Shown: positions 15,151-50,554 of the stretch, in pieces
How positions within the stretch are numbered: position 1 is the stretch's first letter
Layout of the letters: each line of letters opens with the position of its first letter
NCBI GenBank assembly: GCA_017396945.1
Contig: JAFQKI010000007.1
Coordinates: forward strand, 1 to 51,229
DNA length: 51,229 nucleotides
Reading direction: 5' to 3'
DNA from: Muribaculaceae bacterium
Lineage (GTDB): Bacteria; Bacteroidota; Bacteroidia; Bacteroidales; Muribaculaceae
Position numbers and translations under genes: made by a program
Notes under the pieces: model-generated
The model's input: only the letters and a program-made list of their open reading frames with translations
What the model was told of the DNA's origin: nothing
The model's database searches: none

Positions 15151-15170
15151 CTGTGTAAAAAAGACTTGTG

Positions 15171-18997: not shown

Positions 18998-20452
18998 ATG
19001 AAAAAATCATTACTTTCGGTTATCGCAATAATGATAACAATAATCGCCAACGCTTCCGCCCCCTCCGGAACTCTTCCTGTTATTTATATCACAACTCAAA
19101 ATAACGCTGAGATTACATCGACCGAAAACTATATCTCAGCAGCCTTTTATATTGATGCCATGAACTCAGGATACACATCCTTAGGCTCTGCAACAAGCCA
19201 AACCGCCATGAAAATACGCGGACGAGGACAATCCTCATGGAATAATTATGACAAAAAACCTTACCGTTTCAAACTTACAGTAGGTACTAAACTTCTTGAC
19301 ATGAGCAAAAGTAAAAATTTTGCGCTTATAGCTTGTGCCGATGATGATTTGGCATTCTTACGCAACACCGTAGGCTATCGACTAAGTCAGATGTTAGGAC
19401 TCATATACACCCCCGACCGACGTGCAGTTGAACTGGTGTTGAACGGAGATTACAAAGGGTTATACTTCTTGGTTGAGACCGTACGCATCGACAAAGACCG
19501 TGTGCCTATCGTAAAACAAAATGATAATGAAACCGATGCCTCATTAATCTCAGGGGGATGGCTTCTTGAAATTGACAATGCCGATGATCCCGCACAAATT
19601 ATAATCACCGAAGGTAATGGTTCTAAAGCCCGATTTACCTACAAAGACCCGGAAATACTTTCTACCGCTCAAACCGACTACATAACATCTCAATTAAACA
19701 CAATCGATGATGCCATTTACTCCAATAACATAAATTCTACCACATGGCAAAACCATATTGATATTGATTCTCTCGCTCGATACTACATCGTACAAGAGAT
19801 AATGGATAACACCGAGGCTTTCTATGGTAGCACATACCTATTTAAAAACCGAGGCGCAGACCACAAATGGATATTTGGTCCGGTATGGGATTTTGGCAAT
19901 GCCTATCGTCGCAATACTCAGCAATTTATATATCAAAACACGCCCCATACGCCTCAGATATGGATTTCTGAGATAGCAAAATACCCCGCATTCCAAGCAA
20001 AAGTAAAGGAAATTTGGAAAAATTTTTATGCCAACCAATATCCTTCATTAACCTCATACATCGATAATTTCACCGCATCAATCTCAGCTGCCGCAACATG
20101 CGATGTTCAACGTTGGCCTGAATATGGCACAGCCGATATGCAAGCAAAGAAAAACGAGTTTATTTCATTGCTTAACGCTCGCATTCAATGGCTCAACGAG
20201 CGATGGGACGAAACCGGCATTGACAACACTACAATTTCGGGAGGCTTCAAAGTATCCACAAGTAATGGTATGATTACTATCTCAGCATCAGAAGATATTA
20301 ATATAGTAACCATATATGACTCAATGGGTAAAATAATATCACAAGTTGAGCCAAAATCAACGGCTTACGACCACCAAAGTCAAAATGGCATATATATCGT
20401 AGAGATTAAAACCAATAGCCAAATTTTTCAAACCAAAGTATTTGTGAAATAG
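18998..20452 (+). CDS. CotH-kinase family secreted protein 2 with T9SS-like C-terminal tail
   Basis: 484 aa. After a signal peptide (to about residue 20) the CotH domain starts almost at once (LPVIYITTQ), with MKIRGRGQSSW, KKPYRFKL, NFALIACADD, VELVLNGDYKGLY, EIMDNTEAFYGS and GPVWDFGNAY. The C-terminus (about 415-484) ends NGIYIVEIKTNS, a T9SS type A-like tail. It lacks the 130-residue N-terminal module of copy 1 but otherwise aligns along its length, so the two are paralogues separated by the LtaS-like gene. A strong terminator follows. Surface or extracellular location is inferred from signal peptide plus tail. Confidence 0.82.
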   Translation: MKKSLLSVIAIMITIIANASAPSGTLPVIYITTQNNAEITSTENYISAAFYIDAMNSGYTSLGSATSQTAMKIRGRGQSSWNNYDKKPYRFKLTVGTKLLDMSKSKNFALIACADDDLAFLRNTVGYRLSQMLGLIYTPDRRAVELVLNGDYKGLYFLVETVRIDKDRVPIVKQNDNETDASLISGGWLLEIDNADDPAQIIITEGNGSKARFTYKDPEILSTAQTDYITSQLNTIDDAIYSNNINSTTWQNHIDIDSLARYYIVQEIMDNTEAFYGSTYLFKNRGADHKWIFGPVWDFGNAYRRNTQQFIYQNTPHTPQIWISEIAKYPAFQAKVKEIWKNFYANQYPSLTSYIDNFTASISAAATCDVQRWPEYGTADMQAKKNEFISLLNARIQWLNERWDETGIDNTTISGGFKVSTSNGMITISASEDINIVTIYDSMGKIISQVEPKSTAYDHQSQNGIYIVEIKTNSQIFQTKVFVK

Positions 20453-35882: not shown

Positions 35883-35915
35883 AAAGTCGCCGTATCTCAA
35901 CGACAAGGCGACTTT
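35883..35915 (-). terminator. Terminator of the second corrinoid-uptake operon
   Basis: AAAGTCGCC (35883-35891) / GGCGACTTT (35907-35915) with a T run on the minus-strand exit. It closes the long operon that begins at the cobalamin riboswitch near 46.9 kb. Confidence 0.8.
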
Positions 35916-35977: not shown

Positions 35978-38900
35978 TTATTTTACCGCAATTTTTACCG
36001 GCAGATTGCCGACATTAACGATGTAAATACCTTCTACAAGATTAATAGGCACAGTATATTGATTATCTCTTGCGGTAAATGAGGTTATTAATTGCCCTGC
36101 AATATCATAAATTGCCACAACTTCACCTTTGCAATTATTCACTGTCAAATTACCATTAATATAGGAAATATAGATATCGCTGATTTCCACATTTTGAATG
36201 CCTACCGTAGGATCATATTCCACAATTACAGGAATGTTTGCGGTAAATGATTTCACTCCATAAGTTTTGTGAGAGATTGACTGTGTCAACTCAACAGTTG
36301 CCACTCCTGACATATTTTCAGGGATAGTAACCACAAGATTATTGTTAATTATCTCAGCATTTGAAATAAGCAGATTATCACTCACATTGGTCACAGTAGT
36401 CGCAAATGTCAAGTTTGTTTTACTTTGAGTATAGTTAAATACCTCAGCAATAGCCAAAGAGTCTGAAACCTCAACTGCAGCCCCCTCTATCAACAATTCG
36501 CATTCGGTGATAGTAGGTTTATAAATGCGAGGAGTGATTGTCAATGTGGCAGTATTTTTCACTGATGCACCATATTTATCGATACATTCCAATGTGAATA
36601 CAAATTCAGTCTTTGCATCAACATCTCCTGTGAATTTCACCTTAGGCGTGATATTACCGTTGGTAGCATAAGTGAGATCGAGCCAGTCAACATCTTCACG
36701 GATATACATTGTGATGTTATCGGTTCCGGGACCTTCTGCATCTGTAAAGCAAGTTGTAAGTTTTGCGGCTGTGCAGCTTTTTACTGATGTTGCACGTTCA
36801 TACATTGCAGAGCTATAACTATATGCTTTCTTCACTGTTGGAGCTTCATTTACCTCTGTTGCCTCCATTAAGTTTATCGCCGTAGGCACCGCATTACAGA
36901 TTGTTTTGGCTTGTATTAAGTCTGTCGATTCAAAGATAGCCAATCCTTGACTGTATGCCACATAATAGCGTTCATAGGTGTTCCCCTCTGATTCAAAAGT
37001 TTCGCCAACAGCAAGAGTAGGAACCATCATGTCGTTAAGCACCATCACAGTCTCGTCGCCAAATGTTTCGTTTTCAAGATTGTATGCGATAAATCCACTA
37101 CCACGAGATACCATAATATTGTTACCTGCAAGAGTTGAAGCACTATGAGGAACTTGCAAAGAGCCGTCTAATGTAGCAGATGTAATAGTAGATGTGTTGT
37201 CCATTGGATTAAACACAACCATTGAAGCAGCTTCGCCATTCACTTCACCGGTAGCAATATAGAGCTTGTCATTGTGGAGATACATTCCTGAAGCGTTGTT
37301 GCCACCATTCAGTTCTAAATTAGTTTCGGTTAATGCCCAAGTTGCAAGATTAATTTTGTTCATCATTGCATTACCATCTTTTGCACACAAGATATAAGCA
37401 ATATCGCCATTGAGGACTAATTGCTTGATTGTACCATTCAATTTGACAGATTTGAATGCCTCAAGGTCGGTGCGATAGAACACTTTGAGCAAATCCCCGT
37501 CACTGACAAGAATTTTATCTTTGTAAGTGACAAGTTGATGTTTGTTGGTTGAAGATAAGGTTGCTTCAGCGATATTCGAACCGTATGCCACATCATAGCG
37601 AGCGATGTTTGTGCCTTGTGTGACATATGCGTATGCTCCATCTGCAAGCACATTGTCGGTTGGCATTTCTGTTAAATCAGAACTGTTTAATAGTTCACCA
37701 ACGTAGGTTCTGTTTTCGTAAGTTTCGGCATCGATACCTTGAAGTTGAGCAATGCCCGTGTATGATCCATTTTCATCGGTACTGTTAACCATTAATAATT
37801 GCTTGCGAGTTGCTTGGTTGTGAGGGCCATATATAATGGGTACTTCAATTGTTGACTTCTTTCCATAGCAAGTAACATTAAATGTGAGAACATCTGAGCC
37901 ATATTCACCTTCGGTAAATTCATAATAAAGGTGGTTGTTATAAAGAGAAACTTTTGCAAATTCATTTTTCGCAGTCACCTCTTCCATATATACAGTAGCA
38001 CCGGTTTCTGTTGAAAAAATATCACTATTAAGCAATTCACCGGTTGACGCACTTGCCGCAATACGAATCGGATTTGCCTCTATTTTAGGAATATCACGAA
38101 CAGTTATTTCAATTTTATCACTCAATGCCGGATTAATCTCCGATACAGCAGTCAGAGTGGTTACACCGGAAGTCAATGCGATAAAACTACCTTTATCTAT
38201 TGTTCCAACTTCGGGATTGCTATTTAACCAAATGTAATTGTCGTAGATAAAACGATTAGATTTTGTTTCGTTTACGTTTTCAGCGTTTTCATCTTCACTT
38301 TCCACATTGATGTAAACTCGTTCTCCCACTACACATGATAATGCATCTCCTTCAGCTCCGGTATTTCCTTCAAGGCTGATAACTACAGCAGTAAGATTAC
38401 ATACCGAAACCTCAAATACTTCTTCGGGAATGCCGTCCATAGCCGAGAAGTGCACCCACACAGTGCCTTTCCCTTTAGCAGTGAAAAATCCTGTGTTGTC
38501 AATTTCGGCAATGGCGTCAACGCCGTCTGTTACAAGCCCCTCTTGATCCATTGTAAGCCACCAACGTTGAGTCGTATTTTCTACTGGGCGACCATTTTTG
38601 AATAAGAACCCTTCATATTGGCAAGTGTGTCCGAGAGGTACTTGCAATTGAGTGATACCTGCATAATTGTAGTAATAATCTTGTGGCACATATTCGGGGT
38701 CGGGTAAGGTGATGGCACAGTTTAATACTTCGGTTGACCATTCGCCAAGCCAACCGGCAATAACTTGCCCTGCAGTATATACTTTTACGAAATCAATCTT
38801 TTCAAGTTCGACATAATTTCCGTCTTTGTCAACAGCCCAACTGATGTCCATACCATCACCCGCAGTTTCGCCAAGAGACGGACGACCATATGGATTTTGT

Positions 38901-40306
38901 GCGATGCGAGAATCATCTTTCACAAAACCTTTATTGTCGCAATATCCAAAGCCAGAATAAGAATAAAACTCGATATAACTTGGTGAACGCATATCAATGC
39001 AACCTCGAATGTTAGTCATTCCGGTGAAAGTTATCGAGTCGCGTGAAATGCATGGATTATACCAACGCATTGATTCATCGGGATTATCTTGATTGTAGAA
39101 ATAATCGGGATAGAAAGTGTGTTTGTGAAAACTGTTTGTTACCACTGCACCATATTCATGTTTAGTTTCTCCGTTTTCTTCCCATTTCATTGCCCAGGGC
39201 ACAGTGTAACGATCATTGTAATGAGGATTGTAGTAGGTGAGTTCTACATTGCGTTTGGTAGTGCTCAGCCAATAGTCGCTACCAGCAAGTTCATACCATT
39301 CGCCATCATCGGGAAGTCCGTTGCCGTTTTTGTCTTCCATAACTTGCACAGCACCGGGTTCGGTCCATACACCTTTTTCGGCAGCGACAAATGAGTTTCC
39401 TTCAACGGTGAAATCCACACCGTAGGGGTTTTGTGGGTTATTGTAAATAGGTTGGTCAAATCCAAAAACAACATATCCACCCAATGCACCAAGACTTAAA
39501 CCGCGTTGGTCTGATTCAAAAAATTCTACCGGATTATCCCACGCTTCTTCTACTCGGAATTGACCAGCAGCAGGTTGGTATTCCAATATCTTTGTGGCAT
39601 AGCAATTGCGAGTAGCATACGCAATAATTTTATTTGAAGAGAACTCAGATCCATCAGATAGGGTAATTGTATATTTTATCGCATCTGAAACAATTTGTTG
39701 AGGTGTACCATTAAGAGTATATTGAATTACTTTATATCCATTTTCTCCGTCAACCAATTCGGCAGTACCATGTTTCAACTCATCGGCATTGTCAAGCGTC
39801 AAAGTGCAAATTGTTTTTTCGTCAGATTTATAGAAGCTGGTATTGCCAATAACATCATAAACTTGAGACGCAATCGAATCGGGATTAATGTACGATTTAA
39901 TGCCAGAGGTAGCCAACCCCGGCACTTTTACGGGGAAAGTGTTTGTGACTGTTTCGCCATTATAGGTAATAGAAACTGTAAACGTTGTTTCACCTTTTAC
40001 ACCTCCCAAACGAGTGAGTTGCATTCTCGTTTGATTCATGTGGGCATTAATAGTACTCAATTTAATGATTGAGTTATCGCCCGAAGATGTAGTGATTGTA
40101 ATGCCATCCATTTGTGAGATGTCGGTTTTAGTCGTAATCTCATCGGGATAGGTAAACAAATTGTAAAAATAGACATAGAAACTCTTGCTTGCGTCAGAGC
40201 CAACTTCCTCATAGGAATACTCCTTGGGAACGAATTGAGAGCTAGCTTGCGCTGTAACTGACGTTACCAGCGACAAAAACAGCATGATAAAGCTAAACTT
40301 TTTCAT
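35978..40306 (-). CDS. 1442-residue secreted multidomain protein in B12 operon (shared surface domain, Ig-like modules, propeller, T9SS-like tail)
   Basis: There is a signal peptide (to about residue 20). Residues about 238-530 are homologous to the central domain of the 409-aa lipoprotein two genes upstream: EYQPAAGQF, LGGYVVFGFD, the Ca2+-loop-like DKNGNGLPDDGEWYELAGS (325-343), ISWAVDKDGN and VYTAGQ...GWLGEWSTEV. About 530-800 read as Ig/BACON-like beta modules. About 820-1160 contain repeated blade-like segments (YAYVTQGTNIARYD, DGDLLKVFYRTDL, YLHNDKLYIATGEV) suggesting a DUF5074/BtuG-like propeller. More Ig-like text follows, then a tail (about 1375-1442) ending VEGIYIVNV, as in T9SS cargo. 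A role in binding or presenting corrinoid is inferred only from the operon. The start lies 1 base after the previous stop. Confidence 0.7.
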   Translation of the reverse strand: MKKFSFIMLFLSLVTSVTAQASSQFVPKEYSYEEVGSDASKSFYVYFYNLFTYPDEITTKTDISQMDGITITTSSGDNSIIKLSTINAHMNQTRMQLTRLGGVKGETTFTVSITYNGETVTNTFPVKVPGLATSGIKSYINPDSIASQVYDVIGNTSFYKSDEKTICTLTLDNADELKHGTAELVDGENGYKVIQYTLNGTPQQIVSDAIKYTITLSDGSEFSSNKIIAYATRNCYATKILEYQPAAGQFRVEEAWDNPVEFFESDQRGLSLGALGGYVVFGFDQPIYNNPQNPYGVDFTVEGNSFVAAEKGVWTEPGAVQVMEDKNGNGLPDDGEWYELAGSDYWLSTTKRNVELTYYNPHYNDRYTVPWAMKWEENGETKHEYGAVVTNSFHKHTFYPDYFYNQDNPDESMRWYNPCISRDSITFTGMTNIRGCIDMRSPSYIEFYSYSGFGYCDNKGFVKDDSRIAQNPYGRPSLGETAGDGMDISWAVDKDGNYVELEKIDFVKVYTAGQVIAGWLGEWSTEVLNCAITLPDPEYVPQDYYYNYAGITQLQVPLGHTCQYEGFLFKNGRPVENTTQRWWLTMDQEGLVTDGVDAIAEIDNTGFFTAKGKGTVWVHFSAMDGIPEEVFEVSVCNLTAVVISLEGNTGAEGDALSCVVGERVYINVESEDENAENVNETKSNRFIYDNYIWLNSNPEVGTIDKGSFIALTSGVTTLTAVSEINPALSDKIEITVRDIPKIEANPIRIAASASTGELLNSDIFSTETGATVYMEEVTAKNEFAKVSLYNNHLYYEFTEGEYGSDVLTFNVTCYGKKSTIEVPIIYGPHNQATRKQLLMVNSTDENGSYTGIAQLQGIDAETYENRTYVGELLNSSDLTEMPTDNVLADGAYAYVTQGTNIARYDVAYGSNIAEATLSSTNKHQLVTYKDKILVSDGDLLKVFYRTDLEAFKSVKLNGTIKQLVLNGDIAYILCAKDGNAMMNKINLATWALTETNLELNGGNNASGMYLHNDKLYIATGEVNGEAASMVVFNPMDNTSTITSATLDGSLQVPHSASTLAGNNIMVSRGSGFIAYNLENETFGDETVMVLNDMMVPTLAVGETFESEGNTYERYYVAYSQGLAIFESTDLIQAKTICNAVPTAINLMEATEVNEAPTVKKAYSYSSAMYERATSVKSCTAAKLTTCFTDAEGPGTDNITMYIREDVDWLDLTYATNGNITPKVKFTGDVDAKTEFVFTLECIDKYGASVKNTATLTITPRIYKPTITECELLIEGAAVEVSDSLAIAEVFNYTQSKTNLTFATTVTNVSDNLLISNAEIINNNLVVTIPENMSGVATVELTQSISHKTYGVKSFTANIPVIVEYDPTVGIQNVEISDIYISYINGNLTVNNCKGEVVAIYDIAGQLITSFTARDNQYTVPINLVEGIYIVNVGNLPVKIAVK

Positions 40307-40307
40307 A

Positions 40308-42140
40308 TTATAAAACTATTTTATAAGATTGGTTTGAAATTTTTACGAGATAAAGATTCCCTTTCGCAAGTCCTGTAATTTGTTCACCATTGTTTACGAT
40401 GATGGATTTTACAAGAGAACCTTGTGCATTGAAGATTTCTACTTGTTGAGGGGTGTCAATGCCGGTAATCATAATGTTGCCCGAAACGGCAAAAACATTA
40501 GCCTTTTCATGCGTATTCATTTGAATTGAGCTTATTTCGGCAGTAACTGAAACAGCGACACTCTTAGTTACAATTTTACCATTAGAATTAAATGCTATTT
40601 CAACAATGGTATTCCCTTTATTCAAAGGAGTAAGCACTAAATTTCCTCTAACGATATCGGCTTTTACAATAGCCGAATTTTCCACATTACTAATGCTTTT
40701 TATAATCGCCGCATTATTGGAATCGTCATCTGTCACCTTATCGGCAAGTGTGATTTCTACCGGATTTTCATCTTCAATAGTTACATCCTCGATATCTTCA
40801 ACTATTGGAGCTTCATTGTCGGGAAAGATAAACATTGCAGGATACCAATAGCGTTTAATCGGTTCTTGATACTGAATCATTTCCCCTTCAGAGTTTATTA
40901 TTGCATATATCCAATCTTGTGTCGCAATGTTTTCTTCTACATAAAGAGACGCATAGATGTTTCCATCTTTAGGGTTACACTGTATTGCTCCACCATAGAA
41001 ATACAATCCGTCAAAAGAGCTATCATATATCTCTTCACAAGCACCTTCGGCATAAGCCTCGTCGGGATTTGCCAGGTCTATATTATCCCAATCAATAGCA
41101 TCTATATTAAACCGATATAGCACACAGTTTCTGAACCAATTTATTTGACCCAGACTTGGATCGGTATATACAAAATAAAGAACGTTTTCGGTGTTGCTCG
41201 CAGTCAAAGTCCCGGCGGTCCAAGCATACCAAGATTGAGGCACTCCACCTGTATCTATTCTCACTTTCTTTGTCTCAAGAGTATATTGGTCAATGCACAT
41301 TAGTTGGGTTCCATTCCAAGCGTCACCATTCCACCCGTATGGATATTTGAGATTATCCTCATAACCCTCTTCTTGATAGTTCACACCTACCCACACATTA
41401 CCATCTTTACTTTGTACCATAGTTGAGAAACAACCTTCAATGATTTTTAGAATTTCATCGGTTTCAGGGTCAATAACAAGTACACCCAAGTCTTGCTTAA
41501 TTGCAAATACATAATCTTGAGTGCGAAGCATCATACCGATTTGATTTTTATACAACGGACCTTGACCATCGGCATTGCTCACCTCATTTCCCGTAATCAA
41601 AGGGTTATCGGTACCTGGAATAATTTTCTCAGAGTCCCACGTAAAAATTTCGCCTTGCTCGTTCCACTTGAAGACATATATGCCATTTGAAGTGCCGACA
41701 TAGAACTTTTTATTATCAACAAAGCACACGCCACGACCATCGGCATCGGATTTATCATTCTCGTTAACCGAAATAAGAGGGTGAACCTCATCGCCAACAG
41801 GTTTTAGCGTGTTTTTATGCAAAATAGCTACACGACCCGACATCATATCGCCCGGTTCACCGGGGTCTTTATCTTGTTTGGCTGTTATTACAATAAAGTC
41901 ACCATAAAGTTGACCATATTGAGAGGTACACCCAAGAGAGTATTCATAATTATTAGCCATCTGCATGATGTAATAATCAATGAGTTCTGTTTCGGGGTTC
42001 CAAAAGTTAAGAGAACTGTTGTTGTGACCATACCAGTCCTCATTCAATACATACACCCCATTGGTGTAATCTTGTGCTTCTGACTGCAACGAACTACTCG
42101 CAACCAATACACTTGCAATTAAAGAACAAAATTTTTTCAT
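40308..42140 (-). CDS. BtuG-like (DUF5074) propeller protein with T9SS-like C-terminal tail
   Basis: 610 aa. It has a cleavable signal peptide (to about residue 22, no lipobox Cys), then NGVYVLNEDWYGHNNSSLNFW, which parallels the opening of both BtuG lipoproteins (LLNEGSMGSNNA). The repeated blades run to about residue 440 and include VFAIKQDLGVLVIDPET and WNGTQLMCIDQYT. An Ig/cadherin-like module follows (about 445-535). The tail (about 545-610) ends with AKGNLYLVKIS, typical of sorting domains. So this is a BtuG-type propeller apparently secreted through T9SS rather than lipid-anchored. Corrinoid binding is inference from homology and operon position. 35 bases separate it from the upstream gene. 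Confidence 0.75.
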   Translation of the reverse strand: MKKFCSLIASVLVASSSLQSEAQDYTNGVYVLNEDWYGHNNSSLNFWNPETELIDYYIMQMANNYEYSLGCTSQYGQLYGDFIVITAKQDKDPGEPGDMMSGRVAILHKNTLKPVGDEVHPLISVNENDKSDADGRGVCFVDNKKFYVGTSNGIYVFKWNEQGEIFTWDSEKIIPGTDNPLITGNEVSNADGQGPLYKNQIGMMLRTQDYVFAIKQDLGVLVIDPETDEILKIIEGCFSTMVQSKDGNVWVGVNYQEEGYEDNLKYPYGWNGDAWNGTQLMCIDQYTLETKKVRIDTGGVPQSWYAWTAGTLTASNTENVLYFVYTDPSLGQINWFRNCVLYRFNIDAIDWDNIDLANPDEAYAEGACEEIYDSSFDGLYFYGGAIQCNPKDGNIYASLYVEENIATQDWIYAIINSEGEMIQYQEPIKRYWYPAMFIFPDNEAPIVEDIEDVTIEDENPVEITLADKVTDDDSNNAAIIKSISNVENSAIVKADIVRGNLVLTPLNKGNTIVEIAFNSNGKIVTKSVAVSVTAEISSIQMNTHEKANVFAVSGNIMITGIDTPQQVEIFNAQGSLVKSIIVNNGEQITGLAKGNLYLVKISNQSYKIVL

Positions 42141-42175
42141 AATGTTATATGAGTATTTTGTGATTTATATTATTA

Positions 42176-43405
42176 TCATGGATTTGGCATAAATGAGTTG
42201 TCAACATGCAAATCTTCGGCACGGCATATTTCGGTAGAAGTTTCCCCAAGCCAACCACACGACTGATTTACTCCGGTAAAGACACGTATAAAATCCACAC
42301 CTTCAAGATGCACATGATTACCATTCTCATCAACTGCCCAATCTATGTTGAAACAACTTTTATCTTCTACCTCATTAGGGTGATTATCGGCATACCCCCA
42401 GTCATAAGCATATAAAACATAATAACTACCAGTACCACTTTCATCAATTCCATTTGACGCCAATTTGGTTCCGGCAAAAGTCATTTCATCCTCATTAATC
42501 CATTTCGGAAAATAATCTTGACGATGATATGAGTTTTTTTCTATATATCCGGTTGTACCATCGTTGGCGATCCATTGAATATAAGAAGAGTCGGTTATGG
42601 GTGATTGCCGTATTGGAGTCGCGACATGATCTGACGGAGTGCGATAATATGTTACTGAATAATTGTGTAATGTTTCCGGCTTATAGTATTCACTACCCGC
42701 AAGTTCATACCACTCATCATCGGGAATGCCATTGCCGTTTTTATCAATTGACACCATCACGATTCCAGGCTCAGCACTACCACCCGATTCTGGTGCATTA
42801 GGATTGGGATTGGCTTCGGCATAGAAAGAATTACCGATAATTTTAAAGTCCATTTCTCCCGGCGCATTCACTACCGTGTGGTCAAATCCAAATGTCACAT
42901 ATCCGCCATATCCTCCTAAAGAAATGAGTACATCATTTTTATCAGAGATACATTCCAAAACCTTTTCACACATTGTTTCTTCTGTATCACCCTCCTCATA
43001 TTTAGGTAGTTCATTAACAAATTGTCCCGGAGCCGGACGATATTCATAAACCTGTGTTATATATCTGCTATAAGCGACTTGTTCGTTCCACACCGTGATT
43101 GTAACATTATGTTCGACCGGGTCGGTTTCGTCAATAATGCTCAATTTTATGTTATAGACTCCGGCATCTTTTTTGACAAAGTATAAATCGCGGTCGGTTG
43201 ATATAACCGAATCATTTCCGTTACTATCTTTCATCGTCCAGAGATACGCGTCTCCGGGAAATTCGGGGTGCAAATGAAGCATTTTCATTCGTTCAACGGC
43301 ATATTCTTCATTTATGCCAAGGCTTACCATCTCAATTTCAGGCTCACAAGCCGAAAGTGTGATTAGCAATATAATTGCAGATAATATATAATTTAACTTC
43401 TTCAT
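42176..43405 (-). CDS. Surface lipoprotein with PKD-like domain in B12 operon
   Basis: 409 aa. Lipobox LSAC with lipidated C20, followed by acidic EPEIE, consistent with surface-exported Bacteroidales lipoproteins. Residues about 25-110 form a PKD-like beta domain (YLWTMKDSNGND, GVYNIKLSIID). Residues about 120-395 are a domain shared with the 1442-aa protein, including GGYGGYVTFGFD, a Ca2+-binding-loop-like DKNGNGIPDDEW (221-232) and GWLGETSTEI. I cannot name this domain with certainty. Its place 9 bases after btuG2 under a cobalamin riboswitch suggests an accessory corrinoid-capture lipoprotein. Confidence 0.7.
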   Translation of the reverse strand: MKKLNYILSAIILLITLSACEPEIEMVSLGINEEYAVERMKMLHLHPEFPGDAYLWTMKDSNGNDSVISTDRDLYFVKKDAGVYNIKLSIIDETDPVEHNVTITVWNEQVAYSRYITQVYEYRPAPGQFVNELPKYEEGDTEETMCEKVLECISDKNDVLISLGGYGGYVTFGFDHTVVNAPGEMDFKIIGNSFYAEANPNPNAPESGGSAEPGIVMVSIDKNGNGIPDDEWYELAGSEYYKPETLHNYSVTYYRTPSDHVATPIRQSPITDSSYIQWIANDGTTGYIEKNSYHRQDYFPKWINEDEMTFAGTKLASNGIDESGTGSYYVLYAYDWGYADNHPNEVEDKSCFNIDWAVDENGNHVHLEGVDFIRVFTGVNQSCGWLGETSTEICRAEDLHVDNSFMPNP

Positions 43406-43414
43406 TATCGGATT

Positions 43415-44575
43415 TTATTTATATAGAAATACCATGTGAGCAGGAATGTCGCCGGTGCGAACACTCCATTTCTTTTTACCCTCTCTGCTATAGCAATGCA
43501 AAGCACCACTTGACACATAATTTTTTGCATCAGTCACATATATATCACCTGTGACAGGATGAACAGTTATTCCATAAGGGACTTCAATATCTTGCTCAGT
43601 TCCATCTGTGATAAAATGGTCTGTCACAAGCTCTTTTGTACGCACATCTATAATACCATAGGCAATATGATTTCGTTCTTCTTGATTATTCCATTCTACG
43701 CTGTAGAAATAGAGTGAATCACCTTGAATGTGCATCTCAGAGCAAGGGATGTCAAGAGTGTCTGTAACAACCATCTTTCGAGAAAATCGGCTTTCTTTTT
43801 CCAATACAAATATCTTGGAACGAATTGATCCATAGTTTCCCCTTGATGTCACCCACAATTTTCCATACTTATCAGCTTCTATGCGATGAAGGTTAATCCC
43901 AACCGGAATTTTCTCAACTTGTGTCATTCCATATTTTTCGACAACAGAGATTGTGTAATCATACTTTGGTACACGATACCCTCCAGAATTGGCGACATAA
44001 ATATATTCGCCTATTATCTCCAACTCGTCGGGCTGATAACCTACTGTACATTTGCCGGTAATCGCGAGTGATGTTGTATCGACTCGATACACTGCGCCTA
44101 ATTGAGCATCGGGATCAATCGCAACCGGACCCACATAGGCTGAGACATAAGCATTTCCTTTATCAAACTTGATATACCGACAATTTGGTATATCAATTTG
44201 CCCAATGCGAGTCAACGTGTGAGCATCCATTACTTCAACTTTGTGAGAACAGTTGATAACCGCATATAGCTTACTGCCATAGATTTGGATATCGTTCCCG
44301 ACATCTCCCAATTCCTTTATGACCGTAGGGTTGCGCTCTGCATACATGTTGCGCACATAATAAGCATTCTTGAAATCCACAAAATCTATTGACGCCTTAT
44401 TACTACCCATATTTCCCTCATTAAGCAGATACATCCCTATAGGGTCAACATCGGTTGTGGGATCAAATGGCAATATGTCATATTCTGTTGGCACCACAAG
44501 TTCATCCTCTCTACAACTCATGGCGCAACCGAATAGCAATGAAAAGAGTATAACCGATAATATATTTTTCCTCAT
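43415..44575 (-). CDS. btuG: BtuG-type cobalamin-binding surface lipoprotein, copy 2
   Basis: 386 aa from the ATG at 44575; the reading frame extends 3 codons further to a TTG that is not preferred. The N-terminal lipoprotein signal has the lipidated Cys at C17 (LLFGC) or C21 (AMSC). The DUF5074 seven-bladed propeller shows MYLLNEGNMGSNKAS, YAVINCSHKVEVMD, NCRYIKFDKGNAYVSAYVGPV, YQPDELEI, YVANSGGY and PYGITVHPVTGDIYVTDA. It aligns over its whole length with copy 1. BtuG proteins in Bacteroides bind cobalamin very tightly and sit as a lid on BtuB. It starts 11 bases after btuB2. Confidence 0.88.
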   Translation of the reverse strand: MRKNILSVILFSLLFGCAMSCREDELVVPTEYDILPFDPTTDVDPIGMYLLNEGNMGSNKASIDFVDFKNAYYVRNMYAERNPTVIKELGDVGNDIQIYGSKLYAVINCSHKVEVMDAHTLTRIGQIDIPNCRYIKFDKGNAYVSAYVGPVAIDPDAQLGAVYRVDTTSLAITGKCTVGYQPDELEIIGEYIYVANSGGYRVPKYDYTISVVEKYGMTQVEKIPVGINLHRIEADKYGKLWVTSRGNYGSIRSKIFVLEKESRFSRKMVVTDTLDIPCSEMHIQGDSLYFYSVEWNNQEERNHIAYGIIDVRTKELVTDHFITDGTEQDIEVPYGITVHPVTGDIYVTDAKNYVSSGALHCYSREGKKKWSVRTGDIPAHMVFLYK

Positions 44576-44586
44576 TAGTTTCAAAA

Positions 44587-46587
44587 TTAAAGTTCGACTA
44601 CAATACCAAAACGATAGTTGCGTTTAGGCATCGGATAATTTAAAATCACATCATAATCTTGTGAAAAGAGGTTATTTACTTCGGCTGTCGCCTTAAAATT
44701 GATATTGTTGATTTTAAAAGATTTCATTAGCGAAATATCGCTTGTGTACCATGGTTGAGTATAATTATATCTGATATTTTCTTGTTGATTGTAACGCTCA
44801 CCGGTATAGATAAAACTATAATTCAAGTGCCAATCTTTCCAATCAAGCATCAGTATCGCCGAACCACTATGCCAAGGGATATAGGGAATTTGGTGACGAT
44901 AATAATTGTCGGCAGGATTGGTGACATCTATAGCATCTTGATAAGTGTATTGAAATTTTGTAGTGAAATCAATATCATACGGGAGACCAAAAGTTGCTCC
45001 AAGTTGTACATCGACACCTTTGATCTCCACTTTGCCGAGATTCAACATTGTCCAACGGAATTGTTGCCCTTTAGGATAAGCTACTATTTTATCTCTCACG
45101 TCATTATAATACAAATCAGTTCCAACTCTGAAGAACTTAAACCAACTGTTTTTCCTTTCAAGATCATATAATAGCCCGACATTATATTGAATTGCAGTTT
45201 CAGGCTTTAGATAAGCATTACCCATATCGGTATAATACAAATCATTGAATGTTGGCATACGATAACTTTGTTTATAAAATGCTCTAACCACAAAGTTTGG
45301 TTTCTTAAATGGTTTGTATGACATGAATACTCCCGGAGTGAATTTCACCTTATCAGGGGCGGAATCACGGTCTCGTTGTTCCTCATTGACATAAGTCATC
45401 AATCCTGAAGCTTGCAATTTAAAACAATCTCCAAGCGAAAATGCCGTTGCCACAGAGAGCCAATGCGTAGTTCTGTCAACATCCATATACTCCGACAACC
45501 CATTCCATTGAAAGTCATAAGCCATCGAAACATCCCAATTTCTTAAAATCTCATATTTATTTGCCCAAGACAAATACACCTCTTTCTGTTTGTAGGTGTT
45601 ATCGACATGTATCAATTTGTCATCATTGTTAACATATCGGGTATAATCAAAGGCATATTTGGCATTAACCTTAGTTTGTAATTTATTGGTAATATCATAT
45701 TCAAACATCCCTTGGACAAACGAGTTTCTATCCCATAGTCGTTCTCCTCGACGCCACACATTATTTACTATCGCTCCCGGCACGCCTCGCTCTGAATTAT
45801 AATGGTATAAATAAGCTTTCCATCTTCCATTTGGAAGGTATCCATGAACCCCACCTTCAAAACGCACCGCATCAAGATCGCCATTTTGTCTCACCGCAGT
45901 CGTGTCGTATGCAAGTTCACCCGATGGAGTAACACGTCGATATCTAAATTTGTATTTTCCCGAAGCATTTACCCACTCGGCATTGAAGCTCATACTCATT
46001 GTGCGACTGAGTTTATATTCAAATGCGACAGACGGATTAAACAGGTCAAAAGACCCGGCTTTTAATCCGACTTTTAAGTGGCTTGTTTCTCCGGCTTTGA
46101 ATTTCGGGAATTTAGTTGTAAGATATATCGAACCAGCAGAGCCAAACTCTCGTGCCGACTGAAAAATATCACTTTTTTGTCCATTATAAAGAGAAACAGT
46201 CTCGATATTTTCGAGTGAGAATTTACCAAGATCGACTTGACCATTCTGTGCGTTCCCCAATTCTATCCCATTATAATACACCCCCATGTGGTTAGTCCCC
46301 ATTGAGCGTATATTGACGGTTTTAATACCTCCAACCCCTCCATAGTCTTTGATTTGCACTCCTGAGAAATAGCGCAACGCATCGACAACGCTGTGAGAGC
46401 GTAAAACCTCTAATTCTTTTCCGCCTAATGTTTGTGCGGGGATTACATCTTTGTAGGATTGAGCAGTAACTACAACCTCCTGAAGTTGTTGAATACTGTC
46501 AAGTGGAGTTTGCGCAAATGAAACCTGGCATACACCTACCATCATTGCCAATAATAAACCCTTTAATTTCATTCTCTTTGTAGCCAT
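44587..46587 (-). CDS. btuB: TonB-dependent cobalamin receptor BtuB, copy 2
   Basis: 666 aa. It has a signal peptide (to about residue 25, VSFAQ), a TonB box EVVVTA, and a plug domain with VVDALRYFSGVQIKDYGGVGG and IRSMGTNHMGVYY. A 22-strand barrel follows (MPTFNDLYYTDMGNAYLKPE is a conserved late segment), with an aromatic-rich C-terminus (RNYRFGIVVEL). It imports corrinoids through the outer membrane using TonB energy. The cobalamin riboswitch upstream and btuG downstream support the substrate. ATG 46587 is used; MKLKG at 46572 is a possible alternative. Confidence 0.9.
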   Translation of the reverse strand: MATKRMKLKGLLLAMMVGVCQVSFAQTPLDSIQQLQEVVVTAQSYKDVIPAQTLGGKELEVLRSHSVVDALRYFSGVQIKDYGGVGGIKTVNIRSMGTNHMGVYYNGIELGNAQNGQVDLGKFSLENIETVSLYNGQKSDIFQSAREFGSAGSIYLTTKFPKFKAGETSHLKVGLKAGSFDLFNPSVAFEYKLSRTMSMSFNAEWVNASGKYKFRYRRVTPSGELAYDTTAVRQNGDLDAVRFEGGVHGYLPNGRWKAYLYHYNSERGVPGAIVNNVWRRGERLWDRNSFVQGMFEYDITNKLQTKVNAKYAFDYTRYVNNDDKLIHVDNTYKQKEVYLSWANKYEILRNWDVSMAYDFQWNGLSEYMDVDRTTHWLSVATAFSLGDCFKLQASGLMTYVNEEQRDRDSAPDKVKFTPGVFMSYKPFKKPNFVVRAFYKQSYRMPTFNDLYYTDMGNAYLKPETAIQYNVGLLYDLERKNSWFKFFRVGTDLYYNDVRDKIVAYPKGQQFRWTMLNLGKVEIKGVDVQLGATFGLPYDIDFTTKFQYTYQDAIDVTNPADNYYRHQIPYIPWHSGSAILMLDWKDWHLNYSFIYTGERYNQQENIRYNYTQPWYTSDISLMKSFKINNINFKATAEVNNLFSQDYDVILNYPMPKRNYRFGIVVEL

Positions 46588-46606
46588 AATAACATTTAAT
46601 CATTAT

Positions 46607-46738
46607 AAAAGCTACGAGGGTGACAATGACAAGCCTAAACTTATGGTGCAACTTATAAGTCGGGCAGAAATAAAGAAATTTAAGACAGCTGCTTAACACT
46701 TGTCTATACTTCTCAAAGCTCATACCTCGTAAGCTTTT
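46607..46738 (-). promoter_or_regulatory. Expression platform of cobalamin riboswitch 2 (long-range stem and MSFE uORF)
   Basis: Between aptamer and btuB2, a GAGG-containing segment (46725-46738) can form either a local hairpin (AAAGCT/AGCTTT, with GAGG and an ATG at 46721-46723 in its loop) or a long-range stem with 46607-46619, 13 bp with one bulge, close to the btuB2 start codon. The ATG opens a short ORF beginning MSFEKYRQV that runs out of frame past the btuB2 start. The same elements recur in the unit 1 leader. Pairing was read by eye. Confidence 0.55.
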
Positions 46739-46749
46739 GAAAACTTAAT

Positions 46750-46925
46750 GCATAGGCAGGTCTTCTGACTTGTTCCCATCTATTCCGATTGCCTTCCCAA
46801 GATGCTCTTCTCAGTGACGTCGTTATCGGTGATGTTTGTATGGAACTTACAGCTGCGGGGACAGTTCAAGATTTACACTTGATTCCCTTTTAAGCAGTAT
46901 AACTTTGAGCAAGCTACTGCACCCA
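46750..46925 (-). promoter_or_regulatory. Cobalamin riboswitch 2
   Basis: Minus-strand aptamer with the conserved blocks in order: AATCAAGTGTAAATC, CCCCGCAGCTGT, a B12 box (46812-46818), GGGAAGG, and the 3' AGTCAGAAGACCTGCC end. The B12 box reads GTCACTG rather than the usual GCCACTG. It is located 163 bases upstream of btuB2, as expected for cobalamin repression of uptake genes. No consensus promoter was found in the 80-base AT-rich gap between it and btuG1 (46926-47004). Confidence 0.93.
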
Positions 46926-47004
46926 TACATCTATTATTTTTTGTTACTTATTCATTCTATTGATATTTATTTGTATATTATAAACACAATGTTATATCGT
47001 TGAT

Positions 47005-48135
47005 TTATTTGCCGGTAAATGTGATATGAGCGGGGATTACGCCGGTGCGTGCGCTCCATTTTTTCTTTCCGGTGGCATCAAAGCAGTAAACCGTTCCGGG
47101 AGTTATATAGTTGTGCACATCGGTAATCAAAATATCTTTTGTAACCGGGTTGACCGCGATGCCGTATGGCATGATTATATCAGCGTCGGAGCCATCAGCG
47201 ATGAAGTTATCGGCAACTTTTGTGCGACTATCAACATTGACTTTAGCATACGCGATGTCGTAGGAATAAGTCAGATTGTTCCATGACGAACTGATTATAT
47301 AAAGATTGTTGTCATCTATACAGATGTCAGAAACCGGGACTTCGAGTTGGGCGACAATCGCATGTTGTGCGATGTCATAGCAATATAGTCGAGATGGTGT
47401 CTCATAATAATCGCCACGCGATGAAATCCACAAGCAATTATTGTCATCAGCAATGACATATTGCATATTTATCGCAACCGGAATGCGTTCTTCTTCAGTA
47501 AATGAAGCGATGTCAATAACCGATAGGGTGTTTTCGGTGAGCGGATACATATATCCCCCGGAATTGGCAACATAAATTTTTCCACCGACAATTTCCAATC
47601 CATCGGGTTGATAGCCCACCAAACAGCGATCGACAACGGCAAGAGAGGCTGTATCGACTTTAGCGACATACCCCACTTGATTGTTGCCTGAACCATATTC
47701 TACCGGTCCGGCATAAGAAGTAACGTAGGCATATCCTTCATGAAATTTGATATATCGACAATTAGGTATCTCAACTTGACCGATGCGGCGAGCAGTCGCG
47801 GCATCCATTACCTCAACCTTGTTAGATCCATTGATTACAGTGTATAAACGATTGCCATAGATTGCCATATCAACACCTAAGTCCCCCAAATCCATTGGTA
47901 CATCGGGATTGGCTGTAGGATAAAGATTGGTGGTATAAACACCTTTTGAATAATCATAGTAATCAAGAGTGGCATTATTGCTACCCATTGAACCCTCATT
48001 GAGCAAATAAAATCCCGACACTTCAGTCAATTCCGGATTTGACACTTCGGTGTCTGTTGGTGGAGGGAGAACATCGTCTTTTTGACATGCAGTCAAAAAC
48101 GACACTGCGACAAGAAACATTGCAATCTTTTTCAT
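47005..48135 (-). CDS. btuG: BtuG-type cobalamin-binding surface lipoprotein, copy 1
   Basis: 376 aa. Lipobox FLTAC (C17) followed by QKDD, matching the acidic lipoprotein export signal for surface display in Bacteroidales. DUF5074 propeller: FYLLNEGSMGSNNAT, YTVINGSNKVEVMD, NCRYIKFHEGYAYVTSYAGPV, VGYQPDGLEI, YVANSGGY, LWISSRGDY, MPYGIAVNPVTKDILITD. Its start overlaps the btuB1 stop as ATGA, so translation is coupled one to one. There is no terminator after it before riboswitch 2. Confidence 0.9.
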   Translation of the reverse strand: MKKIAMFLVAVSFLTACQKDDVLPPPTDTEVSNPELTEVSGFYLLNEGSMGSNNATLDYYDYSKGVYTTNLYPTANPDVPMDLGDLGVDMAIYGNRLYTVINGSNKVEVMDAATARRIGQVEIPNCRYIKFHEGYAYVTSYAGPVEYGSGNNQVGYVAKVDTASLAVVDRCLVGYQPDGLEIVGGKIYVANSGGYMYPLTENTLSVIDIASFTEEERIPVAINMQYVIADDNNCLWISSRGDYYETPSRLYCYDIAQHAIVAQLEVPVSDICIDDNNLYIISSSWNNLTYSYDIAYAKVNVDSRTKVADNFIADGSDADIIMPYGIAVNPVTKDILITDVHNYITPGTVYCFDATGKKKWSARTGVIPAHITFTGK

Positions 48136-50168
48136 AACTCAAATTTTAGAATAAACTTATAATTGCGTCCCGGCATGGGATAATTTTGTATCACTTCGTA
48201 GTTTTGGTTGAAGAGATTATTGACTTCTACAGTAGCTGTCAATCTCACTTTGTTAAATTTAAATCTGTAGCTTCCCGAGATATCATGAGTGTACCACGGT
48301 TGCTCATAATTGGCAGGGATATTGGCAGAATTATGATAGCGTTCACCTACATATATAAAGCTGTAATTTAGTTCAAGGTCACGCCATGCGCCATGCACTA
48401 TTGTCGAGCCGCTATGCCATGGGATGTAAGCTATCTGACCTTTATATGTGCCTGCATAAGAATCATTATCCGTTGGATCACTATAATCCTGAGCTTTTTG
48501 ATAGGTGTAATTCATATTTAGATCCAATGCGATATCACATGGAAGATTAAAACTTGCTTGAGCATTAACATCGATACCTCGTATTTTCACTTTGCCAATG
48601 TTCATCATCATCCATCGATATTGACCTGTACCCTTTGGCACAGCAATGATTTTATCGGTCACATGATTATAATAGGCGTCGGCTTTAATTAAAACTCGAC
48701 GCAATAATCCATTAAAGTTTGCCGCATATTGAGCACCAATGTTATATAGAGTTACATATTCCGGATTGAGATTAACATTGCCGATGTCGGTATAATATAA
48801 GTCATTGAATGTGGGCATGCGGAAGATGCGTTTATAAAACGCTCGTAGATTAAACGGCACGTCATCAATCGGTTGATATGATAAGAAAAGTGCCGGTGTC
48901 AATTCTTCATGACTCTTGGTGAGACGAGTAACACTTCCGGTGCTGATGTTGGCAGTGCTACGATCATTGACAAATGTGCCGAGCAAACTTGCCTGTCCTT
49001 TTAATCCACGCCATTTATAGGCTGTCGCCAAAGCAACAAGTAATGAGTTGCGTGTAGGATAAGCAAAATTATGCAATGTTGCATCAAGAGTGTTCCACTG
49101 ATAGTCAACCGACAAGTTTACATCCCAATCTTTCAGTATCGTATATTTGTTGGCAACTGACAGATATATCTCATCTTGCCAAAATTCATTGTCGATATAC
49201 ATCATCGTGGTGTCGGGATTGAGATAATGCATGTAATCCCGAGCATACTTGGCGTTAACCATCAATTCATATTTATCGCCAAATCGCTGCATGTAACTAC
49301 CTTGTGTAAAGAAATTTCTATCCCACTGACGTTGAGCGGTTTTCCACACATTATTTACTATTGCTCCGGGAATACCCTTTTCAGAATCATAAAAATAGGC
49401 TTTGAGATTCCATCGACCACCATTAAGTCGTCCAAATAATCCGGCTTCCAATCGCAAAGACTCAATATCACCATTTTGGCGTGTCGCGGTCGTATCCCAT
49501 GCCAACGAACCATCGCTAAGATACTTTTTATATCGAAATTTATACTTTCCATTGGCATTTATATACTCGATATTAGCCGATAGGCTTATACTATTACTTA
49601 ATTGATGCTCTACTAAAATCGAGGGATTGACCAAACCAAACGAACCGGTACGAAATACCGCTTTCACGTTGGTTGATTCGCCTTCGTCAAATTGTGGGCG
49701 ACGTGTGCGCAAATAGATTGTCCCAGCCGAACCAAAGTCGCGTGCCGGCTGAAAAATCTCACTTTTTTGACCATTAAACAATGATATTTCCTCAATGTTG
49801 TCAAGAGAGAATTTTCCCAAATCGATTTGACCATTCTGAGCATTGCCAAGCTGGATTCCGTCATAAAACACCCCCATGTGATTGGTCCCCATTGAGCGTA
49901 TATCAACAGTTTTAATTCCCCCTACACCTCCATAATCCTTGATTTGTACTCCGGAGAAATAGCGTATCGCATCAGCAACCGAATGACTATTAAGCGACTC
50001 AATTTGCTCCCCTTTCAATGTCTGTGCCGGAATGACTTCGGCATAAGGCTTAGTGGCTCTAACTACAACCTCATTCAGATTTGTTATAGAGTCACCCTCC
50101 ACCTCAGACTGAGCCAAAACCCAACCAAAAGTTAGCAACATCACGCTTAATAATATCAATCGTTTCAT
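48132..50168 (-). CDS. btuB: TonB-dependent cobalamin receptor BtuB, copy 1
   Basis: 678 aa from ATG 50168 (MKRLILLSVMLL), chosen because GGAAG lies 9 bases upstream; the in-frame ATG at 50174 is nearly on top of that site, and the longer frame to 50234 starts with TTG. Signal peptide to about residue 20, TonB box EVVVRA, plug VADAIRYFSGVQIKDYGG and SMGTNHMGVFYDG, barrel with MPTFNDLYYTDIGNVNLNPE. It is close to copy 2 over its whole length, with the plug nearly identical and the extracellular loops divergent. It sits under cobalamin riboswitch 1. Confidence 0.9.
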   Translation of the reverse strand: MKRLILLSVMLLTFGWVLAQSEVEGDSITNLNEVVVRATKPYAEVIPAQTLKGEQIESLNSHSVADAIRYFSGVQIKDYGGVGGIKTVDIRSMGTNHMGVFYDGIQLGNAQNGQIDLGKFSLDNIEEISLFNGQKSEIFQPARDFGSAGTIYLRTRRPQFDEGESTNVKAVFRTGSFGLVNPSILVEHQLSNSISLSANIEYINANGKYKFRYKKYLSDGSLAWDTTATRQNGDIESLRLEAGLFGRLNGGRWNLKAYFYDSEKGIPGAIVNNVWKTAQRQWDRNFFTQGSYMQRFGDKYELMVNAKYARDYMHYLNPDTTMMYIDNEFWQDEIYLSVANKYTILKDWDVNLSVDYQWNTLDATLHNFAYPTRNSLLVALATAYKWRGLKGQASLLGTFVNDRSTANISTGSVTRLTKSHEELTPALFLSYQPIDDVPFNLRAFYKRIFRMPTFNDLYYTDIGNVNLNPEYVTLYNIGAQYAANFNGLLRRVLIKADAYYNHVTDKIIAVPKGTGQYRWMMMNIGKVKIRGIDVNAQASFNLPCDIALDLNMNYTYQKAQDYSDPTDNDSYAGTYKGQIAYIPWHSGSTIVHGAWRDLELNYSFIYVGERYHNSANIPANYEQPWYTHDISGSYRFKFNKVRLTATVEVNNLFNQNYEVIQNYPMPGRNYKFILKFEL

Positions 50169-50189
50169 TATCATCTTCTTCCAAAATCT

Positions 50190-50322
50190 CAACAGAGACG
50201 GAGGGTGGTAATGAAAAAGTTGATCGACGCGCAATTATCCCTGAATAGAGAAACCGATTTCGGACATTGACAATGGTGAAACACGTCTTGACCTTTCAAA
50301 GCTCATTCCTCGCAAGCTGTTG
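50190..50322 (-). promoter_or_regulatory. Expression platform of cobalamin riboswitch 1 (long-range stem)
   Basis: Counterpart of the unit 2 element. The GAGG segment (50308-50311) plus CAACAG (50317-50322) can pair with CCTC (50201-50204) and CTGTTG (50190-50195) just upstream of the btuB1 ribosome site. Relative to unit 2 one A to C change in the left arm is matched by T to G in the right arm. A 14-base block, TCATTnnCACCCTC on the minus strand, is conserved in both leaders. Confidence 0.5.
50235..50306 (-). other. Upstream short ORF (MSFERSRRV...) in the btuB1 leader
   Basis: 23 codons, ATG at 50304-50306 preceded by GCGAGGA as a ribosome site, ending 66 bases before the btuB1 ATG. The first nine residues (MSFERSRRV) resemble the corresponding ORF in the unit 2 leader (MSFEKYRQV). 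It may be translated as a regulatory uORF, or the similarity may only reflect a conserved RNA element. Confidence 0.35.
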
Positions 50323-50341
50323 AAATACAAAAATATGTAGT

Positions 50342-50518
50342 GGCAGGTCTTCTGACTTGTTCCCATCAATTCCGACAGCCTTCCCGAGATGCTCGTCTCA
50401 GTGGCATTAGAGAACGTCGGCGATGCTATAATGGAACTCACAGCAGCGGGACTGTTCAGGACTTTCACCTGATTCCCTATTAAGCGGCGTCACCCCGAGC
50501 GGGCTACCGCACCATTAC
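50342..50518 (-). promoter_or_regulatory. Cobalamin riboswitch 1
   Basis: Minus-strand aptamer with AATCAGGTGAAAGTCC, TCCCGCTGCTGTGA, the canonical B12 box GCCACTG (50399-50405), GGGAAGG, and AGTCAGAAGACCTGCC at the 3' end. It is followed by the conserved expression platform and then btuB1. In this class, adenosyl- or other cobalamins bound to the RNA shut down uptake genes. Confidence 0.95.
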
Positions 50519-50523
50519 GATGA

Positions 50524-50554
50524 CAAAATTAATGTATATTTTCCAATCCTGCAA
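50524..50554 (-). promoter_or_regulatory. Promoter of corrinoid-uptake unit 1
   Basis: On the minus strand TTG (50552-50554), 20 bases, TAATTTTG (50524-50531): full consensus match immediately before the riboswitch aptamer, so transcription starts at its 5' end. Confidence 0.75.

Follow-up and report, generated by a model that had tools for sequence, protein, structure and literature searches.

Vitamin B12 is a nutrient competed for in the gut. The Bacteroides-based model of its capture rests on lipid-anchored binders. A locus in a Muribaculaceae genome (GenBank assembly GCA_017396945.1) raises the question of whether corrinoids are also caught by proteins exported through the type IX secretion system (T9SS). 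The window analysed here, 51,229 nt, is one entire contig (JAFQKI010000007.1; G000:C2) of this 1.48 Mb genome, which is in 19 contigs and 63.8% complete. A reading of the sequence alone (the original prediction) had described a layered corrinoid-capture system with three BtuG-like propellers, two of them on T9SS-tailed proteins, in one riboswitch operon. Our analysis points to a riboswitch-led BtuB/BtuG/BtuH cluster together with two proteins, of 610 and 1442 amino acids (aa), that join BtuK/BtuG- and BtuH-related domains to predicted T9SS tails and are probably extra corrinoid catchers outside the cell.

Two cobalamin riboswitch units in tandem

The locus consists of two minus-strand units in tandem, each headed by a cobalamin riboswitch. 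In unit 1 the riboswitch is followed by BtuB and a BtuG lipoprotein, the btuG gene overlapping btuB by 4 bases. Unit 2 contains a riboswitch, BtuB, a BtuG lipoprotein, a 409-aa lipoprotein and the 610- and 1442-aa proteins, with intergenic gaps of 2, 9, 35 and 1 bases in gene order; the five genes and their operon spacing of 1-35 bases had been predicted correctly. Signal peptides and lipoboxes were read by eye throughout, with no signal-peptide program. The features are as follows (immunoglobulin-like is given as Ig-like).

50325..50531, minus strand: cobalamin riboswitch of unit 1 (RF00174, 107.2 bits, full model)
48132..50234, minus strand: BtuB-type TonB-dependent receptor of unit 1 (PF00593, PF07715; TIGR01779 1.1e-30, under its cut-off)
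47005..48135, minus strand: BtuG lipoprotein of unit 1 (BtuG1 chain 8blw_B, E=1.8e-37; lipobox LTAC then QKDD)
46738..46941, minus strand: cobalamin riboswitch of unit 2 (RF00174, 116.3 bits)
44587..46587, minus strand: BtuB-type TonB-dependent receptor of unit 2 (PF00593, PF07715; TIGR01779 2.5e-30, under its cut-off)
43415..44584, minus strand: BtuG lipoprotein of unit 2 (BtuG1 8ptf/8ptd, E=3e-37; 8blw_B, 6.5e-37; lipobox)
42176..43405, minus strand: BtuH-type lipoprotein, 409 aa (BtuH domain at about residues 106-403; one weak PKD-like N-terminal domain)
40308..42140, minus strand: 610-aa DUF5074 protein (signal peptide without lipobox, predicted BtuK/BtuG-type propeller, Ig-like domain, predicted T9SS type A tail)
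40821..42074, minus strand: predicted propeller of the 610-aa protein (residues 23-440)
40317..40472, minus strand: predicted T9SS sorting tail of the 610-aa protein (residues 557-608; TIGR04183, near cut-off)
35978..40306, minus strand: 1442-aa protein (signal peptide without lipobox, BtuH, Ig-like domains, predicted propeller, Ig-like domains, predicted T9SS tail)
38720..39607, minus strand: BtuH domain of the 1442-aa protein (residues 234-529; 8blw_B and 7biz_A matches)
36845..37822, minus strand: predicted propeller of the 1442-aa protein (residues 829-1154)
36008..36157, minus strand: predicted T9SS sorting tail of the 1442-aa protein (TIGR04183, near cut-off; DUF6383)
35886..35904, minus strand: terminator-like stem, 74 bases past the last gene (consensus scan only)

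Both riboswitches scored far above the RF00174 gathering cut-off of 31.5 bits, in line with the riboswitch originally claimed for unit 2. At E≤0.001 they were the only two cobalamin riboswitches in the 63.8% complete genome, and three DUF5074 matches were likewise the only ones. The longest open reading frame of the unit-1 BtuB begins at TTG, an internal ATG being the likelier start. The unit-2 BtuG lipoprotein also matched the BtuG2 chains 8bmx, 8bmy, 8bn0 and 8bai (E of 3e-12 to 9e-12). As described for BtuBG of Bacteroides thetaiotaomicron (PMC6143338, PMC10404256), both units of the window combine a riboswitch, BtuB and a BtuG propeller lipoprotein at a single locus. A scan for promoters and terminators yielded counts near those of shuffles (13 terminator-like sites versus 9.7 expected in the scanned stretch) and was not used as evidence.

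BtuH-related domains in the 409-aa and 1442-aa proteins

The 409-aa protein had been called a PKD-like lipoprotein. It is indeed a lipoprotein and has a weak match to PKD_3 (0.0092, under its cut-off), but its main domain had been missed. By homology this is a BtuH domain, of a class known to bind B12, matching the BtuH part of BtuGH (8blw_B) at E=7.6e-85 and BtuH2 (7biz_A) at E=2.6e-52. The 'shared domain' reported for the 1442-aa protein was likewise found, although its identity as BtuH had escaped notice; residues 234-529 matched 8blw_B at E=2e-29 and 7biz_A at E=9.2e-24. Both proteins are therefore homologous to the BtuH group described in PMC8941943 (BtuH1, BtuH2 and the BtuG1/BtuGH fusion).

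Eight residues of BtuH2 that touch B12 were named by Putnam and colleagues (PMC8941943). Seven of them are identical in the 409-aa lipoprotein, the eighth being a W511 to Y change, at an overall identity of 117/260 aligned positions. The BtuH domain of the 1442-aa protein keeps six of the eight, at an overall identity of 96/256 aligned positions. Among 76 homologues of the 1442-aa protein, Q333, N399, H476 and W577 are each kept in 75, L578 in 76 and F401 in 70. At the two other positions, Y510 is replaced by I and W511 by E (I in 72 and E in 70 of the 76 homologues), so that part of the pocket may differ from that of BtuH2.

The partners listed for BtuH domains in the available text of PMC8941943 are a propeller, a PKD domain or no added domain. 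In BtuGH of B. thetaiotaomicron a propeller and a BtuH domain share one protein and each binds B12. A similar pairing occurs reversed in the 1442-aa protein, with BtuH ahead of the predicted propeller rather than behind it, on a long stalk and with another predicted anchor. Besides the replaced Y510 and W511, this protein differs from BtuH and BtuGH in its added, predicted T9SS tail, and its N-terminus has no apparent lipobox cysteine, unlike those of BtuH lipoproteins.

Predicted propellers of the 610-aa and 1442-aa proteins

Structure prediction gave propellers in both the 610-aa and the 1442-aa proteins. By profile and predicted fold, that of the 610-aa protein is closest to BtuK1 and BtuG, and resembles BtuK1 more than BtuG; we thus assign it, on the model, to the BtuG/BtuK fold. 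A search of solved structures with the 610-aa profile found BtuK1 at 7e-18; among the 19 chains at E≤10, 4r5o, the BtuK2 chain, was absent. BtuK is the nearest sequence relative among solved structures, and BtuK1 and BtuK2 (PMC12751083; structures 9s6c and 4r5o) are nearest to this propeller in sequence and fold. Both BtuK and the 610-aa propeller begin their first blade with NExW(F/Y)GH. According to PMC12751083, cobalamin is bound by BtuK1 and not by BtuK2, and BtuK proteins are lipoproteins; the 610-aa protein has no apparent lipobox, and its predicted T9SS tail has no counterpart in the solved BtuK chains. The missing lipobox also sets it apart from BtuG, of which each unit already has its own lipoprotein. 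The B12 contacts of BtuG2 are W194, W272 and Y316.

For the 1442-aa propeller, a plain Foldseek search with a 902-residue model placed, of the BtuG group, only 3dsm among the best 50 rows, at rank 50. In a second structural comparison BtuG2 came first, by a small margin only. The propeller is thus predicted, and kinship with BtuG is possible. Of the three BtuG-like propellers originally proposed, the unit-2 BtuG and the predicted 610-aa propeller stand, the latter being nearer BtuK1, and the third stands as a predicted propeller that may be BtuG-like.

The domains bear on an alternative in which the T9SS-tailed proteins bind no free corrinoid but serve to hold or organize the BtuBG complex, or attach to food particles or to B12 carrier proteins of the host. 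We consider this unlikely because the BtuH domain retains most of its B12-contact residues, and because the 610-aa profile finds the binder BtuK1 and not the BtuK2 chain.

Predicted T9SS tails and the export machinery

Both proteins have ordinary signal peptides, as far as can be judged by eye, and in this respect and in their predicted tails they resemble T9SS type A cargo (TIGR04183/PF18962; PMC10202324, PMC11969387), which shares a signal peptide and a C-terminal domain with GxY and a terminal basic motif. Against the TIGR04183 cut-off of 23 bits, the 1442-aa tail scored 27.9 bits in the genome scan and 21.3 bits in the whole-protein scan, and it matched DUF6383 just above the cut-off (24.7 versus 23.7). 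The 610-aa tail scored 24.2 bits as a 110-aa piece and 16.1 bits in the whole-protein scan; it is absent from the 34 TIGR04183 matches (33 above cut-off) of the genome scan at E≤0.001. One by one, the predicted tails are therefore marginal, and support for them comes from relatives.

Matches to the 610-aa protein (E≤1e-10) were found in 91 of 198 family genomes, representing 24 genera. Our survey sample took one locus each from 40 of the 91, covering 20 genera and hand-picked for best hits and spread. TIGR04183 matched, at E≤0.1, 39 of 56 DUF5074-protein ends (one from the window and 55 from 38 of the 40 loci, another, truncated by a contig end, being excluded), compared with 3 of 36 for BtuH-domain proteins and none of 33 for BtuG lipoproteins. 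The sorting tails originally assigned to both proteins are thus near threshold singly and enriched among their relatives.

The genome search for T9SS machinery covered SprA, GldL and PorU, and all three were found; GldL was present in 39 of 41 genomes, including the window's own. Two proteins exceeded the NCBIfam PorU cut-off of 420 (G000:C7:19494-20621 and G000:C12:106844-107938, with scores of 943 and 620 bits), and the cargo of these two PorU-like sortases may differ. Elsewhere in the window, outside the B12 units, plus-strand genes at 15168-16997 and 18998-20452 encode T9SS type A tails above cut-off (29.2 and 29.1 bits). A paper on the related family S24-7 examined 30 genomes and reported all ten T9SS components for 22 of them, B12 transporters for 28 and complete B12 synthesis for none (PMC4936053). 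The same paper counted 161 tailed proteins, 60% of them hypothetical, and its available text treats B12 transport and T9SS separately, without joining them.

A proposed second capture tier outside the membrane

The order of events we favour, with the 610- and 1442-aa proteins as extra corrinoid catchers, would begin when low corrinoid relieves the cobalamin riboswitch, as the riboswitch family implies. BtuB would then be made as receptor, and BtuG and BtuH, to judge from their homology, as lipoproteins. The 610- and 1442-aa proteins would cross the inner membrane by their ordinary signal peptides and the outer membrane through SprA/PorV, after which PorU would cut the tail and either join the proteins to lipopolysaccharide (LPS) or release them. 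Away from the membrane, the BtuK/BtuG-type propeller and the BtuH domain would bind corrinoids and hand them to BtuG and then BtuB for TonB-dependent import, by analogy with BtuBG of B. thetaiotaomicron. The BtuH lipoprotein would act as a near-membrane catcher, and the T9SS-tailed pair would form an additional tier that is either bound to LPS or set free. The layered system of the original prediction is supported in part: apparently non-lipidated proteins with predicted tails accompany BtuG and BtuB and are linked to riboswitches (below), and the predicted 610-aa propeller is closer to BtuK1 than to BtuG.

The tailed proteins could instead bind corrinoid and go into the medium as a secreted, siderophore-like carrier rather than form a surface layer. 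Part of T9SS cargo is released unattached (PMC10202324), and the vesicle-borne BtuJ carriers of B. thetaiotaomicron (PMC12751083) set a precedent. However, LPS attachment is described as common in T9SS secretion (PMC10202324), and a btuG2 mutant was not rescued in co-culture by cells producing BtuG2 (PMC6143338), so sharing was not seen for that binder. We regard a secreted carrier as improbable.

BtuB, BtuG, BtuH and BtuK are already known kinds of protein; what appears new is the predicted T9SS-tailed addition to BtuBGH-type capture. The surface binders described for B. thetaiotaomicron are lipoproteins, whereas unit 2 adds two binder-like proteins with ordinary signal peptides and predicted T9SS tails. 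Neither 'T9SS' nor 'type IX' occurs in the main texts on BtuH (PMC8941943), BtuBG (PMC10404256), DUF4465, BtuG (PMC6143338) or BtuJ/BtuK (PMC12751083), and a review of T9SS cargo (PMC10202324) contains neither 'vitamin' nor 'cobalamin'. Among the matches listed in the open-licence literature, no title or abstract dealt with T9SS-exported corrinoid binders, which is no proof of absence. If the favoured reading is true, common but little-cultured gut Bacteroidales would display B12 catchers by another route for the same job, and vitamin capture would become linked to a secretion system whose better-known cargo comprises proteases, adhesins and enzymes that degrade polysaccharides. It would also propose a function for DUF5074 proteins, whose name occurs in one paper of the open-licence literature searched, and a job for some of the mostly hypothetical T9SS cargo of S24-7 (PMC4936053).

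Linkage to cobalamin riboswitches among relatives

In the family survey, a same-strand cobalamin riboswitch lay upstream of the 610-aa relative within 15 kb in 35 of the 40 loci and within 10 kb in 33, compared with ~0.3 if uniformly placed. The five loci without one were those of G098 and G181, which are near contig ends, and of G067, G132 and G048. A BtuH-domain protein was present at the same locus in 35/40, and btuB, btuG, btuH and DUF5074 occurred together in 28/40. A scan of public contigs with the 610-aa protein gave two loci, with proteins 87% and 72% identical.

Across the wider order, the 610-aa protein had matches in 23 of 295 genomes, 20 of them outside the family. From these, 14 loci were taken (excluded: G025, G238, G297 and G480, tail-region match only; G309 and G381, not taken). 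A cobalamin riboswitch was found in 12 of the 14 and btuB, btuG or btuH in 13; locus L067 has neither. The linkage of homologues to cobalamin riboswitches, named as a check in the original prediction, thus holds in most sampled loci within the family and outside it. An architecture like that of the whole 1442-aa protein is present in L012-L015 and L057, L013 being truncated by a contig end.

Chance adjacency of the tailed genes is ruled out by the linkage in 35/40 family loci. That the last two genes of an ordinary BtuBGH operon encode unrelated surface proteins that happen to follow is very improbable and already disfavoured: spacing and strand alone cannot prove function, but the riboswitch linkage holds inside and outside the family and the domains are BtuK/BtuG- and BtuH-like.

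Beside the shorter relative of the 610-aa protein, a second, longer DUF5074 protein (~740-2100 aa) was observed at L016:3133-6051 and in 16 more of the 40 family loci. These longer proteins have an N-terminal half without an assigned domain.

Exchange of C-terminal ends

The ends of the binder-like proteins vary among relatives. In four loci of the window's own genus, a BtuH protein that appears by eye not to be lipidated ends in the short motif YNLQGxxVxxPxxGIFIK (L032:5739-6860, L033:8609-9730, L034:7804-8928 and L035:9868-10953). It follows relatives of the unit-1 BtuB (73-75% identical) and BtuG; in the window, no short-ended BtuH gene lies behind unit 1. This end has a visual likeness only to the short T9SS signals described for Prevotella intermedia (PMC11969387). 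Outside the family, a BtuH protein of L061 ends in a Por tail (28.7 versus the Pfam cut-off of 27), and by eye the ends in L055, L056, L058 and L059 are similar.

In genus g33 (L036-L039, L050), BtuH or DUF5074 proteins within cobalamin riboswitch loci end in type I dockerins in place of T9SS tails. These ends were checked one by one in L036, L037, L039 and L050 and by eye in L038; in L037, BtuH, DUF5074 and dockerin are fused in a single protein. Replacement of T9SS tails through loss of T9SS in this genus was considered and ruled out, GldL being found in 5/5 g33 genomes searched. Cohesin matches occurred in 3/5 g33 genomes and also in 2/6 others searched (G011, G046), and are therefore not special to dockerin-ended loci.

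Given these short, Por and dockerin ends, sequence comparison indicates that the binder modules stay while the end module is exchanged. A wider proposal, to which we give about even chances, is that T9SS-bearing Bacteroidales have a second, non-lipidated B12-capture tier under cobalamin riboswitches, with swappable ends (long T9SS, short or dockerin), acting as an LPS-anchored or scaffold-held corrinoid antenna outside BtuBG.

Two B12 loci also encode 1315-aa proteins with a T9SS-like end (L058:8674-12621 and L059:5768-9715). BLAST matched these to the window's B12 proteins at the tail only.
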